A stretch of DNA of 48,844 nt. Source: Phycisphaerae bacterium (lineage in GTDB: Bacteria; Planctomycetota; Phycisphaerae; JAAYCJ01). Positions 28,201 to 35,499 of this stretch are shown here, in pieces. The DNA lies in the NCBI GenBank assembly GCA_012729815.1, contig JAAYCJ010000037.1, positions 1 through 48,844 of the forward strand, given 5' to 3'. The position numbers and the translations under genes are program-made. Position 1 is the stretch's first letter, and every line of letters begins with the position of its first letter. The notes under the pieces were generated by a model. The model ran no database searches, had not been told where the DNA came from, and saw nothing but the letters and a program-made list of their open reading frames with translations.

Positions 28201-28740
28201 ACGCGCCTCACCGCTCGCCTGGGCCCAGACCACCGCCTGGTACAGATGCCGCGCTGCGGGCAGAAACTCGTTGTCCCGAAGCAGCATGCTGCCGATCACG
28301 AAATGACCCAGCACGTCCCGCGGATCGAGCTGCAGCAGAATCTCAGCCTGTTCGCGGGCCAGCGTGTGCTGCCCCTGCTCCAGGTACGTCTCGGTCAACA
28401 GCCGACGCGCGGGAAGGTGGTTGGCGCTGAGCTCCAGCGCCCGGTTCAGGTGCTCGACCGCCTCCTCGAACTCCCGGCCGACCAGCGCCCGGCGGGCCTC
28501 CATGTAGGCCAGCGTCGCCTCGCCGTCCATCGGCCCGGCGCCCGCCGGCTGCGTCGCCGCCGCCGCGACCGGCGAACCCAACAACTCCTCGACCGAGATC
28601 GTCTCCGATCCCGGCCCGTCCGGCGCCGCCGACGGCTGCGTGCTCATCGGCTTCATCTGGCAGCCCGCCGCGGCGACCAGCGTCACGCAGGCCGCCGCCA
28701 GCACCCCGAACCTCGGCAGACGCACCCGGTGGATGGTCAC
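25222..28740 (-). CDS. TPR-repeat lipoprotein
   Basis: 1172 residues. Starts with GTG (28738-28740), overlapping the hisG stop as GTGA. The N-terminus has a lipoprotein signal (LVAAAGC, lipobox Cys about residue 27). Many degenerate TPR units follow, for example [29 protein letters not shown]-type helices near residue 80 and [30 protein letters not shown] near the C-terminus. A Thr/Pro-rich tail ends [12 protein letters not shown]. Probably anchored to a membrane and facing the periplasm, as an assembly scaffold. It is the last gene of the nusA run, but coupling to hisG does not imply a histidine role. Confidence 0.88.
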
Positions 28741-29627
28741 GGAATCACCTTGTTCAGCGGATAGGTTATGATGCCGCTCGCCCCCGCCTCCTTCAGCTTC
28801 GGCACCAGGTCTCGCTCCGTTCGTTCCTCAAGAATCACCTCGATCGCCGACCAGCCCTTCTCCGCCAGCGAGCTGATCGTCGGCGACTTCTCCGCCGGCA
28901 GCAGCGCCAGCACCCGCTCCAGCGACTCCTGCGGCACGTTCATCTTCAGCCCCACCTTCTCCGACGCGTCGATCGCGCCCTTGACCAGCAGGGCCACCGC
29001 CTCGATCTTCCTGCGCTTCCACGGATCGTTCCACGCGCTGCGGTTCGCGATCATCCGCGTGGTCGACTGGAGCAGTTCGGCCACGATCCGCAGGTTGTTG
29101 GCCCGCAGGCTCGAACCGGTCTCCGTCACGTCCACGATCCCGTCCAGCAGCCGGGCCTTGACCTCCGTCGCGCCCCACGAAAACTCCACCCGCACGTTCA
29201 CCCCGCGGTCCGCGAAGTACTTGCGCGTCGTGTTCACCAGCTCCGTGGCGATGATCCCGCCGGCCAGATCCTCGACCCGCGTGACCTCCGACTCCAGCGG
29301 CACCGCCAGCACCCACCGCACCGGACGCCGCGTCGCCTTCGAATACTCCAGCTCGCAGACCTCCACCACGTTCGAGCCGTTCTCGCAGATCCAGTCGTAG
29401 CCCGTGATCCCCACGTCCACCACGCCGTCCTCGACATACCGCGACATCTCCTGGGCGCGGAACATGATGCACTCGAGCTCCGGATCGTCCACGCTCGGAA
29501 AGTAGCTCCGCGAGCCGGTCGAAATGTTAAACCCGGCCCGGCGGAACAGGTCGAACGTCGAGTCCTGCAGGCTGCCCTTGGGCAGGCCGATCTTCACCTT
29601 CTTCGATTCATCTACCTTGCCGTCCAT
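28737..29627 (-). CDS. hisG: ATP phosphoribosyltransferase, long form (HisG)
   Basis: 296 residues from the ATG at 29627 ([21 protein letters not shown]); in-frame upstream starts at about 29651 and 29672 are possible. First step of histidine synthesis: ATP plus PRPP gives phosphoribosyl-ATP. The [17 protein letters not shown] start, [14 protein letters not shown], the PRPP-binding strand ([18 protein letters not shown]) and the C-terminal regulatory domain ([39 protein letters not shown]) show the long form with feedback domain, so no HisZ is needed. No other his gene is near. The stop overlaps the start of the TPR gene. A 63-bp gap separates it from the HhH-like gene upstream. Confidence 0.93.
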
Positions 29628-29690
29628 CGTCGTTGTCTGACCCTCCAGCATGCGTGTTCGCCTGGCATTCAAACCGCCCTCGTCGCGCCG

Positions 29691-30410
29691 TCACTTGCGG
29701 CTTCGCGGGGCGGTCGTTTTCTTCCTGGCCGTCGCGGCCGTCTTCGCCGTCTTGCTCTTGGCGGCCGTCTTCTTGACCGCTTTGGCCTTCGGTTTGGCCG
29801 GCGGCGCGGCGCTCTCCGACGCCGCCTTCACCAGCAGATAGAACTCGCGGACTTCCGCCGCCTTGAGCTGCCGCTCCACGTAGTGCTGGGCCTCGGCCGC
29901 CGCCACCTCCTCCGGCAGCACCTCCGCCACCTTCAGATAGTCCAGCATCTGCTGATCCACCGGAAACACCGGCACGCCGAAACTCAGCAGCAGCATCGCC
30001 TTGCGGGCGTGGTCCGGGCACTCCGGAATCGTCTCGAACGTCGCCAGCAGGGCCGACTGCTGCTGCTCCCGCAGGCCGCTTAAGTCCATCGTGTCGAACT
30101 TGTTGAACAGCCAGCTCAACGAGCCGACGATCGCCTGCGCCTTCTCCGGCGCACCCTTGACGTTCGGCTCGAGCAGGTCGGCCAGTTCGGCCGCCGGCGT
30201 CACCCGCAGCTCGTTGAAGTCGATCATCTCCTCCAGCAGGCCGTGCAGGGCGCCGCGGGCCCGGCGCGTGTTGGCGTCGGTGGCCAGAATGCTCAGGATC
30301 AACTGCTCCGCCGGGTCCGTCAGACCCTCATCCGGCACAGCGCCCGACTCCCGTCGCAACCGGTTGAACAACGTCCGCATCCGCTTGGCGAATTGACTGG
30401 GGATTCTCAT
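29691..30410 (-). CDS. Endonuclease-III-fold (HhH-GPD-like) protein with lysine-rich tail
   Basis: 239 residues from the ATG at 30410 (MRIPSQFAKRMRTLFNRLRR). The frame is open 183 bases further upstream but that part overlaps rbfA. DPAEQLILSILATDANTRRARGALHGLLEE resembles the endonuclease III opening, and ETIPECPDHARKAMLLLSFGVPVFPVD aligns without gaps to its HhH-to-Asp segment. The Gly-rich hairpin is ECP, the catalytic Lys is His134, Asp152 is kept, and no Cys4 cluster follows. From about residue 200 a Lys/Ala/Thr tail (KKTAAKSKTAKTAATARKK) resembles histone H1. Likely a DNA-binding protein derived from a glycosylase. It sits between rbfA and hisG. Confidence 0.78.
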   Translation of the reverse strand: MRIPSQFAKRMRTLFNRLRRESGAVPDEGLTDPAEQLILSILATDANTRRARGALHGLLEEMIDFNELRVTPAAELADLLEPNVKGAPEKAQAIVGSLSWLFNKFDTMDLSGLREQQQSALLATFETIPECPDHARKAMLLLSFGVPVFPVDQQMLDYLKVAEVLPEEVAAAEAQHYVERQLKAAEVREFYLLVKAASESAAPPAKPKAKAVKKTAAKSKTAKTAATARKKTTAPRSRK

Positions 30411-30424
30411 CGCGCCGTTCCCGT

Positions 30425-30853
30425 TTACCTGGATTCCTGGGGGTTGGCCTCCGGGTCCTCCGGAGGCGGCTGGTCGGGAAACTCCTCCTGCTCCTGACGG
30501 TCCGCAAGCTCGGCCATTGTCTTGTCGATCAACTGAATCGTCTCGAATCCCTTCTTGAGCGACTGGTCCAGGTGAAACCGCGCGGTCGGACACGTCCGCG
30601 TCCGAAGCTTCCGCGCCACCAGCGACTGCAGATGCCCGTGCGCACGGTCCACCGCCTTCATGTAGGCCTTCTGCTGACCCTCAGTTCCCATCACGGATAT
30701 GTAGACATCGGCGTACGACAGATCCGGCGACAGCTCCACCCGCGTCACGCTCGCCAACCGCTCCAACCGAGGGTCCGACAGCTTGTTCTGCAACGCGTCG
30801 CTCACCACGAGCCGGATCTGCGAGGCCAATCGCTTCAGCCCGATGCTCGACAT
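30425..30853 (-). CDS. rbfA: Ribosome-binding factor A
   Basis: 142 residues. LKRLASQIRLVVSDALQNKLSDPRLERLASVTRVELSPDLSYADVYISVMGTEGQQKAYMKAVDRAHGHLQSLVARKLRTRTCPTARFHLD covers the whole RbfA domain (KH-like fold); a Pro/Glu-rich tail follows. RbfA helps maturation of the 16S rRNA 5' end in the small subunit. It sits 8 bp downstream of DUF503 and after infB, the usual order nusA-infB-rbfA. The HhH-like gene begins 14 bp on. Confidence 0.93.
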   Translation of the reverse strand: MSSIGLKRLASQIRLVVSDALQNKLSDPRLERLASVTRVELSPDLSYADVYISVMGTEGQQKAYMKAVDRAHGHLQSLVARKLRTRTCPTARFHLDQSLKKGFETIQLIDKTMAELADRQEQEEFPDQPPPEDPEANPQESR

Positions 30854-30861
30854 TCGCTCAC

Positions 30862-31152
30862 CTATATCAGATCTATCTGGTAGTCCACCAGCGACGCGCC
30901 GCGAAAGCCGCGCAGCCGCTCCACCACCCGGTCCAGGCTCGACCGCACAAACTCGCCGTCGTTGCCCACCAGGCTCACGCCCAGCACCGCCTTGCGGTGC
31001 CGGTCCAGCGCGTCGATCTCCGCGATCGAGACGTTGAAGTCGTGGGCGATCCGGTCCTTGATCGACTTGACCACCCGACGCTTGTCCTTCAGCGTCATCG
31101 CGTCGTGCACGATCAACTCCACCTGCAATACGCCGACGACCAGGCTCGGCAC
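30862..31152 (-). CDS. ylxP: DUF503 (YlxP-like) protein
   Basis: 96 residues, the normal size for DUF503. VVGVLQVELIVHDAMTLKDKRRVVKSIKDRIAHDFNVSIAEIDALDRHRKAVLGVSLVGND is the recognisable core, with the usual SLKDKR-type loop. Such proteins regularly stand between infB and rbfA and are thought to act in ribosome assembly or rRNA binding; the role here is inferred from that. Spacing is 19 bp from infB and 8 bp to rbfA. Confidence 0.9.
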   Translation of the reverse strand: MPSLVVGVLQVELIVHDAMTLKDKRRVVKSIKDRIAHDFNVSIAEIDALDRHRKAVLGVSLVGNDGEFVRSSLDRVVERLRGFRGASLVDYQIDLI

Positions 31153-31171: not shown

Positions 31172-33937
31172 CTAGCTCGAACCGGCCGACTGCAGCTTCC
31201 GCGCCACCTCGACCATCTCGTACGCCTCGATCACGTCGCCTTCCTTCAGGTCGTCGAACCCGGCGATCTTCATGCCGCACTCGAGGCCCTGACGCACCTC
31301 GCGAACGTCGTCCTTGAAGCGCTTCAGCGACTCGAGACTCGCGTCCTCCCGCACGATCACGTTCTGGCGAATCACGCGGATCTTCGCCGACCGCTCGATC
31401 TGGCCGTCGTTGACCAGACAGCCCGCGATCGTGCCCACCCGCGACACCTTGAACACTTCCTTGATCGTCGCCCGGCCCTTGACCGTCTGCTGGTACGTCG
31501 GCTCCAGCAGGCCCTCGATCGCCTGCGAGATCTCCTCGATCAGGTGGTAGATCACCGTGTACGTCTTGATCTGAACGTCCAGCTCGTGCGCCTTGCCCCG
31601 CGCCGCGTCGTCGGCCACCACGCCGAAACCGATCACGATCGCCTCCGACGCCTCGGCCAGCAGCACGTCGCCCTCGGTGATCCCGCCGGTGCCCACGTGC
31701 AGGATCCGCACGTGCACCTCGTCGGTGCTCAGCTCCTCCAGCTTGGTCCGCAGCACGTCCACCGAACCCTGGGCGTCCGCCCGCACGATGATGTTGAGCT
31801 GCTTGACCTGGCCCGCCTCGACCTGCTGGAAGATGTTCTCCAGCGTCACCTTCGGACGGGTCATCCACGTGTTCTGCTGATCCTCCTGGCGCTTCTCCTC
31901 GGCGATCCCCTTGGCCGTCTGCAGGTCCGCCACGCCGTAGAAGTGCTCGCCGGCGTCCGGCACCTCGTCCAGGCCCAGAATCTCGACCGGAGTGGCCGGA
32001 CCCGCCGACTGGATCGACTTGCCCAGGTCGTTGAAGATCGCCCGCACCCGGCCGAAGCCGCGGCCCGCCGCGATCACGTCGCCGACCTTCAGCGTCCCTT
32101 CCCGGATCATCACGTCGGCCACCGGGCCGCGGGTCAGGTCCTGACGCGCCTCGATCACCACGCCCGCCGCCGGCCCGTCCGGATCCGCCTTCAGGTCCAG
32201 CAGCTCCGATAGCGTATAGAGGTGCTCGATCAGGGAGTCCATCCCTTCGCCGGTCACCGCGCTGGTCTTGATCACGTCCGTCTCGCCGCCCCATTCCGAC
32301 GGGGCCAACTGGTGCTCGGCGAGCTGCCCGTAGATCCGGTTGAAGTCCGCGTTCGGCAGGTCCACCTTGTTCAGCGCCACCACGATCGGCACCTCGGCCG
32401 CCTTCGCGTGGCTGATCGCCTCGACCGTCTGCGGCATCACCCCGTCATCCGCCGCCACCACCAGCACCACGATGTCCGTCATCTGCGCCCCGCGGGCCCG
32501 CAGCGCCGTAAACGCCTCGTGGCCCGGGGTGTCCAGGAACACCACCGCCCGACCGTCGTGCTCGTAACGGTACGCGCCGATGTGCTGCGTGATCCCGCCC
32601 GCTTCGCCCTGGGCCACCCGCGCGTGACGCAGACGGTCCAGCAGCGACGTTTTGCCGTGGTCCACGTGGCCCAGGAACGTCACGATCGGAGGACGCGGCT
32701 TCACATTCGTCCGCTCCCGCTGCTCGAACTGATAGACCAGCTCCTCGTAGCGGCTCTTCTGACGCACCACCTCGACCTCCAGCTCGAAGGCCAGGGCCAG
32801 CATCTCCGCCTGCTCGCCCGTGATCGCCTGGTTGATCGTCGCCGGAAGGCCCAGCTCCATGAGCTTGGGGAACAGCCGGTTGAACGGAAGACCCGTCGCC
32901 GCGCAGAAATCTTTCAGAATCATCGGATCGGTTACCTGAATCTTGGTCGGTTTCGCTTCCCGCTGACGGCCGCCCACCTTGCGGGTCTCGGTCTTGCGGA
33001 CCATCTGCGGATGATCCGCAGCCGCCGCCAGACGCTGGCTCCGCTCCAGCAGGTCCTTGTCCCGCCACTCGCGAATCTGCTCGACCGCGTCGCCAACCCG
33101 ACCGCGGCGAGGATGGAAACGGCTCTTGGCCTTTTTCTTGGCCGCCTCGTCTTCCGCCGGCGCCTCGCCCGCCCGGCCCGGCCGACGCGGCCCGCGGCCC
33201 GTGCTCGGCAGCGACGTCTCGACCGGACCGCCCGACGACGACGGGGGCCGCGGCGGACCTTGACGTGCCGGACCCGGACGGCGAACCACCTCCGGCTTGT
33301 CCATCCGAACCACCCGCGGGCCCTGCAGCACCGCCGGCGCCGGAACGTGCGCCTGACCGACCGGCTTGACCGGCTCGCGCGGCTTCTCGGGCTCGGCCTC
33401 CGCCACCGGCGCCGCTTCCGCCGGCGCCTCCGCTTCAACCGCCTCAGCCGACGCCTCGATCGGTTCCGCTTCCGCTGCGGGTGCTTCCTCCGCCGGCGCC
33501 GCCTCCGCTTCGACTTCGACCGCCGCCTCCGGATCGGCCGGCGCCTCGGCTTCCGCCGCCTCCGTCGGCGCCGCCTCGACCTCCGCCGCCGGAGCTTCTT
33601 CCGCCGCCGACGCCTCGACCGTCACCGCGTCCGATTCCTCGAACACGTCGGCTTCCGGCTCCTCGCCGGCTTCGGCCGATTCGTCTTCCGGCGATTCCGG
33701 TTTCTTCTTGCGGCGACGGGGCTTTTCCTTCACCTTCTCCAGGTCCACCCGGTCCGCCGTCTCCTGCGTGGTCGCGTGATCGCCTTCGCTGAACCATTCG
33801 CGAATGGTCGCCTCGAGCCCAGCCGACAGGATGGACATGTGATTCTTGATGTCCAGCCCTTCGGCCTGGCACTTGTCCAGGATCGCTTTGCTCTTGACGC
33901 TCAGCTCTTTCGCTAACGTATGTACCCTGATAGCCAA
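31172..33937 (-). CDS. infB: Translation initiation factor IF-2
   Basis: 921 residues from the TTG at 33935-33937, which has GGAGG six bases upstream and gives [22 protein letters not shown], the IF-2 N-terminus. The ATG at 33958 precedes that site and is less likely. An Ala/Glu-rich acidic stretch (about residues 60-200) and a Pro/Arg-rich part lie before the domains. GTPase motifs: [19 protein letters not shown] (G1), [30 protein letters not shown] (G2/G3) and [15 protein letters not shown] (G4). The C-terminal C2 domain ([26 protein letters not shown]-like) binds initiator tRNA. Placed after nusA. Confidence 0.95.
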
Positions 33938-33970
33938 CAGGCACCTCCACAAGGTCATCCAGACCTTTGA

Positions 33971-35260
33971 CTAACCTTCCGACGGCTCGGACTCGGTCTT
34001 TTCTCCTTCCGTCTCCTCGCCCACGCGGGCCGAGAAACGCGCCGGCGCCGCGGACTCAGCGTCCGACGCCGCGGCCGCCGCGGCCTTCGCTTCGGCCTTC
34101 GCTTTTTCCATCTCCACCGCCGCCCGCTCCGCCTCGCCGGCGCACGCCTGCACCAGACGCTGCGACTCCTCCTCCGACATCGACAGCTCGCTCATCAGCG
34201 GCTCGGCGCCCACCTCCGACACGTCGCCCACCGACACCATGCCCAACGCCACGATCTTGCCCAGCAGCGTCGAGTCGCCCACGCCCGCCGACTGGATCAC
34301 ACGCTCCAGACGCTCGATCCCGGCGTTGTACTCCGCCGGCGTGATGATGTCGATATCCCAGCCGGTCAACCGGGCCGCCAGACGCACGTTCTGCCCGCGC
34401 TTCCCGATCGCCAGCGACAACTGCTCGTCGTCCACCAGCACCGTCGCACGGCCCAGCTCGAACGACAGGTAAATGTTCGTCACCTCCGCCGGCTTCAACG
34501 CGTTCCCGATCAGCACCGTGCTCGACTCGTTCCACCGCACGATGTCGATCTTCTCCCCGTTGATCTCGTCCACGATGCTCTTGATCCGGCTCCCGCGAAC
34601 CCCCACGCACGCCCCCACCGCGTCCACCTTGCTGTCCAGGCTCACCACCGCCACCTTCGTCCGGTATCCCGCCTCCCGGCCCAACGCCTTGATCTCGATG
34701 ATCCCTTCGGCCACCTCCGGAACCTCCAGCTCGAACAGCCGGCGGATAAAGTCCGGATGCGTCCGCGACAGCACGATCTTCAGCTGCGTCCCCGTCTCCC
34801 GCACATCGCGGATCAGCGACCGAAGCCGCTGGCCCGGCTGGTACGTCTCGCCCGGAATCTGCTCGCTCCGCGGCAAAAATGCCTCCACCCGCCCCAGATT
34901 CACCGTCACCGCCGAACCTTCCTGACGCACCACCGTCCCCGTGACGATCGTGTCCTTGCGCTCCAGGAACTCGTCGTACAGACTCCCCCGCTCGGCCTCC
35001 CGAATCTTCTGAATCATCACCTGCTTGGCCGTCTGCGCGGCGATCCGCCCCAGGTCGCGAAGGCTGATCGACTGCCCGTCGTGGCTCGCCTGGATCTGAC
35101 CGTTGTGCCGGTCGATCGTCACCGTGACCTCATCCGTCGCCCCGAAGTATTTCCTCGCCGCCGACACCATCGCCGCCTCCAGGTCCGAAAACACCGTCTC
35201 CCGGTCGATGTTCCGTTCCTTCGCGATGACGTCCACGATCCTGAGTATGTCCTGGTTCAT
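33971..35260 (-). CDS. nusA: Transcription termination/antitermination factor NusA
   Basis: 429 residues from the ATG at 35260 (MNQDILRIVDVIAKERNIDRETVF), preceded by AAGGAAG. NusA N-terminal RNA-polymerase-binding domain, S1 domain (TIVTGTVVRQEGSAVTVNLGRVEAFLPRSEQIPGE), and KH1/KH2 (VAVVSLDSKVDAVGACVGVRGSRIKSIVDEINGEKIDIV; LSLAIGKRGQNVRLAARLTGWDIDI). The C-terminus has an HhH-type repeat region and an acidic/Ala-rich end. NusA modulates pausing and termination and rRNA antitermination. It heads the run nusA-infB-ylxP-rbfA; the terminator at 35304-35336 isolates it from the ABC ATPase gene. Confidence 0.95.
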   Translation of the reverse strand: MNQDILRIVDVIAKERNIDRETVFSDLEAAMVSAARKYFGATDEVTVTIDRHNGQIQASHDGQSISLRDLGRIAAQTAKQVMIQKIREAERGSLYDEFLERKDTIVTGTVVRQEGSAVTVNLGRVEAFLPRSEQIPGETYQPGQRLRSLIRDVRETGTQLKIVLSRTHPDFIRRLFELEVPEVAEGIIEIKALGREAGYRTKVAVVSLDSKVDAVGACVGVRGSRIKSIVDEINGEKIDIVRWNESSTVLIGNALKPAEVTNIYLSFELGRATVLVDDEQLSLAIGKRGQNVRLAARLTGWDIDIITPAEYNAGIERLERVIQSAGVGDSTLLGKIVALGMVSVGDVSEVGAEPLMSELSMSEEESQRLVQACAGEAERAAVEMEKAKAEAKAAAAAASDAESAAPARFSARVGEETEGEKTESEPSEG

Positions 35261-35303
35261 CCGTTCTGTCTTCCTTTCACTGAACGTCTTCGTTCCGTTC
35301 AAC
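35261..35303 (-). promoter_or_regulatory. nusA leader with short hairpin
   Basis: Between the terminator and the nusA start, arms TGAACG and CGTTCA (35281-35286 and 35296-35301) pair on either side of a nine-base loop. No -35/-10 pair is convincing here, so the nusA promoter may lie upstream of or within the terminator. The hairpin could have a role in autoregulation of nusA, but the evidence is only the arms. Confidence 0.3.
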
Positions 35304-35336
35304 AAAAAAAGTGGGTGCGCAGCGCTTCCCACTTTT
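35304..35336 (-). terminator. Rho-independent terminator after the ABC ATPase gene
   Basis: Minus-strand reading gives AAAAGTGGG, a 12-base loop that contains GCGC twice, then CCCACTTTT followed by TTT (seven T in total). It lies 164 bases beyond the stop of the ABC ATPase gene and 44 bases before the nusA start, so it ends the ATPase transcript and separates it from the nusA operon. Confidence 0.8.
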
Positions 35337-35499
35337 CCTCCGGTCACCCGCGGCATCCGCGCCGCGCTCCGTTCGCCGCCGTCGCGGCGCCCGATACCTT
35401 ACGGTTCGACCTGGCTCGGCCCTGGTCGGTTTGTCACCGCACTCAGTTCATATGCCGGCCTCCTCGCACCGAACCGACCGGAAGAACTCGCCGCACCGC

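Follow-up and report, generated by a model that had tools for sequence, protein, structure and literature searches.

The HhH-GPD fold is that of DNA glycosylases such as E. coli-type Nth and MutY, which carry canonical catalytic residues and an Fe-S cluster. DrEndoIII-1 (DR2438; PDB 4unf/8a5f) and DrEndoIII-3 have the HhH GVG, the catalytic Lys (GVGVKTA and GVGHKTV) and the Fe-S cysteines, DrEndoIII-1 being mostly a monofunctional glycosylase (PMC10523315). In plants, the ROS1/DEMETER glycosylase domain (PDB 7yho-7yhq) forms an active 5mC glycosylase/lyase within a very large protein. Assembly of the 30S ribosomal subunit involves, among other factors, RimM, which acts on the 30S head, and RbfA, which acts on the platform (PMC10582724). 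The locus described here brings a protein of the former kind into the gene neighbourhood of the latter.

The window, by which we mean the whole 48,844-nucleotide stretch of Phycisphaerae DNA that was analysed, carries on its minus strand the gene order nusA (33971..35356), infB for initiation factor IF-2 (31172..33958), a DUF503 gene (30862..31152; PF04456, E 6.3e-27), rbfA for the 30S assembly factor (30425..30853; PF02033, E 1.2e-27), a gene for a 239-aa protein here called X (29691..30410), and hisG (28737..29672; PF01634, E 5.4e-43). The open reading frame of X is genuine, with an ATG start at 30410, 14 nt from the stop of rbfA, and a stop codon at 29691-29693; a GTG further upstream, at 30593, is the less likely start since it would make X overlap with rbfA. 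We hold, with some confidence, that X is a non-catalytic HhH-GPD protein with a role in translation, probably in 30S subunit assembly, a function suggested by its genomic context.

When searched alone, X has no Pfam match, PF00730 included, a match to NCBIfam NF053634 (DR2438-type monofunctional glycosylase) at E 5.6e-6 that lies far under the cut-off, and a weak PDB match to DrEndoIII-1 at E 0.07. The profile of the X family, in turn, matches DrEndoIII-1 at E 8e-18, DrEndoIII-3 at E 2e-12 and plant ROS1 at E 1.5e-10, or at E 5e-12 over residues 45-167 with another alignment. The AlphaFold model of X, computed with 56 family sequences, is all helical (mean pLDDT 91, pTM 0.81, core >95), and its top Foldseek matches are all HhH-GPD glycosylases, namely DrEndoIII-1, DrEndoIII-3 and EndoIII-DNA complexes, with E-values down to 2.7e-7 and a probability of 1.00. 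A second model, of an Fe-S-bearing Gemmata member, is of lower confidence (76.6) and returned matches identical to those of X. As the family profiles, the AlphaFold and Foldseek results and the Gemmata model agree, the predicted two-domain, all-helical EndoIII fold can be taken as firm and places X in the HhH-GPD structural superfamily; a preliminary description of the window had proposed just such a fold and named an unrelated predicted fold as the outcome that would speak against it. X shares with DrEndoIII-1 and DrEndoIII-3 the fold, homology over the full-length core and the DWxx and PVD surroundings, and with ROS1/DEMETER profile homology over residues 45-167, but has neither the Lys nor the additional domains of the plant proteins. 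It likewise has the HhH-GPD fold of Nth and MutY, both of which are also encoded in its genome, but belongs to a separate clade: in the tree, a 93/89 split separates the X family from a fused glycosylase and from two proteins of the same genome, Nth and the EndoIII-like one, with the Phycisphaerae members forming a single clade (100/97).

What had initially looked like a single odd protein belongs to a phylum-wide family. Homologs of X at E <= 1e-3 were present in 284 of 298 Phycisphaerae genomes, including 228 of the 230 of high quality, and at the loci inspected in this class all copies lie beside rbfA. A broader profile gave matches at E <= 1e-5 in 92 of 99 genomes sampled across Planctomycetota, the weakest of these matches being perhaps other EndoIII-type proteins. 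Scanning genome contigs with the single X sequence recovered no relative, the patterns being peculiar to that sequence, and it was a query from a tighter alignment of the X family that recovered relatives in the contig scan. A single-motif scan of 84,980 genomes returned Planctomycetota records, with a few exceptions whose labels were different or vague (L079, L100, L082) and which carry the same operon. The family thus searched for appears near-universal in Planctomycetota and not a one-off. Two of the exceptions, titled Alphaproteobacteria (L079) and Leptolyngbya (L100), show the Planctomycetota-type order infB-DUF503-rbfA-X in whole or in part and are probably mislabelled or mixed assemblies.

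The company that X keeps was surveyed in 58 genomes from 41 families. It lies immediately after rbfA in 11 of the 41 families, immediately after rpsP (bS16) in 12, in the order ffh-rpsP-X and often followed by maf, and immediately before yebC in another count of 12; hisG follows X in 10 of the 41. Only a few of the surveyed genomes have X beside none of rbfA, rpsP and yebC, and the chance of X adjoining any one named gene is about 1 in 1000-2000 per genome. The rbfA-, rpsP- and yebC-linked sets hardly overlap, the exception being that yebC or hisG may follow an rbfA-linked copy. As X has come, again and independently, to lie next to one translation gene or another in lineages far apart, gene order provides strong evidence for a putative role in translation, widening the link to a ribosome-factor operon that had been seen in the window; since most linkage groups keep different neighbours, X would have no single fixed partner. 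Gene neighbourhood reports pathway company and not the mechanism or what X touches.

In most bacteria, rpsP is followed by rimM, which encodes a beta-barrel protein. Searches for RimM with PF01782 were positive in 10 of 10 bacterial controls and in 0 of 99 Planctomycetota genomes, and with TIGR02273 they gave a single full match among the 99 (L180), plus sub-threshold noise in three genomes. The full match sits in a 2.2-kb locus on a small contig, adjoined by ABC-transporter and trmD-like sequence, and is probably a contaminant. Similar searches found RbfA in 58 of 59 Planctomycetota, TrmD in 51 and RsgA above cut-off in 42, as well as RimP in 12 (10 of them above cut-off), which leaves about four fifths of those sampled without RimP. 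In the genome of X, ffh, rpsP (PF00886) and trmD (PF01746) follow one another, rpsP and trmD having no rimM between them; another Phycisphaerae genome has the order ffh-rpsP-trmD-rplS-like. RimM therefore appears, as far as profile searches can tell, to be absent from the whole phylum. With RimM in all ten control bacteria and not credibly found in 99 Planctomycetota, 30S maturation in this phylum would proceed without it, and the X family offers a testable lead.

Because X is conserved beside ribosome-assembly genes in organisms where the usual RimM is missing, it may be an unrecognised ribosome-assembly protein. The helical core could make a specific contact with pre-30S rRNA or with a 30S protein, without any base excision, the Lys-rich tail might add general RNA affinity in the species that have one, and binding of X would in this way help 30S subunit maturation. 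Counting against the assembly reading, the core is not basic, which does not favour direct binding of rRNA by the core. With RimM and RimP, X has in common the slot after rpsP and the company of rbfA, and X occurs where RimM is lacking, but no resemblance in sequence or fold was found: X is all helical, gives no Pfam match and no RimM NCBIfam match, and is predicted to have an EndoIII-like fold. That X takes over the task of RimM on the 30S head, or that of RimP, is possible, though only a guess. The sharper form of this idea, with X as the Planctomycetota substitute for RimM, a dead glycosylase fold maturing the 30S head after the loss of RimM and mostly also of RimP, we regard as tentative and on balance doubtful. 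If it were true, X would be the first member of the HhH-GPD superfamily with a task on the ribosome, and throughout a phylum a DNA-repair fold would have been turned to ribosome assembly. Annotation as it stands, with no Pfam match and a weak glycosylase label at best, would then mislead counts of repair genes in Planctomycetota. The limited literature collection searched contained nothing on the X family or on the absence of RimM in Planctomycetota; in these sources the HhH-GPD fold family is known, but a branch of it that appears non-catalytic, spans a phylum and keeps to ribosome genes is not described.

The strongest rival to an assembly role is a broader one, in which X serves translation or gene expression without taking part in subunit assembly, as a regulator or an RNA-binding cofactor working with NusA, SRP or YebC-type control. 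The nusA-infB-rbfA, ffh-rpsP and yebC contexts speak for it, having translation in common and not one assembly step, but rbfA and rpsP both have to do with the 30S subunit, and the rimM that normally comes after rpsP is missing, so that we judge this broader role unlikely.

The C-terminal tail of X suggested a different role, that of a nucleoid-associated protein binding DNA in the manner of histone H1. Residues 201-239 (29694..29810, minus strand) form the tail of about 40 residues rich in Lys, Ala and Thr that the preliminary description had noted, with 11 K, 12 A, 6 T, 3 R and no acidic residue, a net charge of +14 and low model confidence (about 58-77). Among 81 Phycisphaerae members, Lys makes up 25% or more of the last 30 residues in 44, and it averages 26% over that stretch, a composition which fits DNA binding of this kind. 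Yet the tail reaches several hundred residues in some orthologs and is short or lacking altogether in L003, L014, L031 and L041, of which L031 is 46% identical to the X of the window, while the core is conserved; a conserved Lys/Ala-rich DNA-binding region, as in histone H1, is not what the family has. Being of variable length and missing in some orthologs, the tail cannot be what carries the core function of X; it is an accessory and not a defining part. Moreover, the core is acidic, with a net charge of -8 in the window protein and a family median of -2, and the genes linked to X are rbfA, rpsP and yebC, translation genes and not nucleoid genes. The chromatin-like role that had been proposed is accordingly very unlikely, and of the expectation that homologs would share both the losses and the tail, the loss of Lys holds throughout the family and the tail, missing from L031, does not. 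A diverged clade of the X family (f16; L159, L160, L164) has no Fe-S cysteines and lies upstream of yebC, some of its members having very long Lys/Pro/Ala/Glu tails that bring the total to as much as 571 aa.

The assembly reading takes X to be non-catalytic, and here the residues at the former active site can be compared directly. A phmmer alignment of X with DrEndoIII-1 (LPGVGVKTASLVLLFNYARPVFPVD) runs without gaps from the HhH through the Asp, over a degenerate stretch at residues 127-152 (29955..30032, minus strand), in which ECP replaces GVG at residues 130-132 (30015-30023), His134 (30009-30011) stands at the Lys site and Asp152 (29955-29957) is kept. The only Cys of the whole protein is Cys131, which leaves the window protein without Fe-S ligands. 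The ungapped match, ECP, His134, Asp152 and the absence of Fe-S cysteines had been read from the window before, and all proved right. X differs from DrEndoIII-1 and DrEndoIII-3 in having no Lys and a broken HhH and, in Phycisphaerae, no Fe-S cluster; of the features of a bifunctional EndoIII, it has neither the catalytic Lys nor the HhH GxG nor the C-terminal [4Fe-4S] cysteines. In a non-redundant set of 170 X homologs, Lys at the catalytic column was found in none, Tyr or Phe being the commonest residues there and present in most, with Lys one column earlier, at the Arg position of Nth, in a few. The second Gly of the HhH is retained in 10 of the 170, and the Asp152 column holds Asp in 118, most others having N, T, S, G or E. 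The best-conserved motif lies elsewhere, at residues 63-70 (I-D-F-N-E-L-R-V; 30201..30224, minus strand; family motif V-D-W/x-N-E-V/L-R-V), Arg69 being present in 170 of 170, Asn66 in 169 and Asp64 in 163. Arg69 and the HxxPVD stretch occur also in the fused glycosylase L141, which does not have Asn66, and their conservation may therefore be partly ancestral, perhaps a structural inheritance. In eight close pairs with measurable dS, dN/dS was 0.015-0.20. With the Lys lost, residues near-invariant and dN/dS low, X is under purifying selection for a function that is not lyase catalysis, and the recurrence of the same losses in orthologs across the class is well above chance.

The four Fe-S cysteines are present in Gemmataceae and several other lineages, the homologs of Gemmataceae, f52 and f93 having the same operon position as X, including L145 and L146, where X lies between rbfA and hisG, and are lost in the Phycisphaerae and Pirellulaceae-type members, with seven changes on the tree. 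Homologs with both an active Lys and an Fe-S cluster in the same position had been named as evidence against the loss of catalysis; the cluster is found there and the Lys is not. An active, Lys-bearing ancestor in the same operon was likewise looked for among the X homologs and not found. A joint loss of cluster and Lys is out, as the Fe-S-bearing members are also without Lys.

Loss of the Lys alone is compatible with a monofunctional glycosylase, in which Asp152 would suffice to repair DNA or process an unusual base. MutY has Tyr at the Lys column and Asp without Lys can suffice in MutY-type enzymes; the MutY of the X genome reads GIGRYTA, with Tyr or Phe also commonest at this column in the X family, and Asp152 is present in the window protein, as is Asp in the 118 homologs. 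Since DrEndoIII-1, the closest characterised relative of X, is mostly a monofunctional glycosylase (PMC10523315), such activity is possible for the Asp152-bearing members. However, some 30% of proteins that are otherwise orthologous have another residue in place of Asp, very few keep the second Gly of the HhH, loss of the Fe-S cluster has occurred several times, and the basic DNA cleft of DrEndoIII (PMC10523315) has no counterpart in the net charge of X. Furthermore, the genome of X already encodes a canonical Nth, a MutY and an Fe-S EndoIII-like protein, and its neighbours are translation genes, which together make a retained glycosylase activity improbable. Decay of X into a drifting pseudo-glycosylase is out, given the near-invariant residues, the low dN/dS and the presence in 228 of 230 high-quality class genomes.

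Two other HhH-GPD proteins were observed along the way. The third such protein in the genome of X (L059:1366-2070, minus strand) contains Fe-S cysteines, reads GIGPETA with Glu at the Lys column and is probably a monofunctional glycosylase. The fused glycosylase L141 (L141:3973-5769, minus strand; genome G137, contig C5) is a 598-aa open reading frame joining an Fe-S EndoIII-1-like glycosylase (E 1e-28 to DrEndoIII-1), with Tyr at the Lys column, to a DNA cytosine-C5 methyltransferase (PF00145, E 1.7e-65), the glycosylase being, on one reading, a mismatch-repair partner of the methyltransferase.
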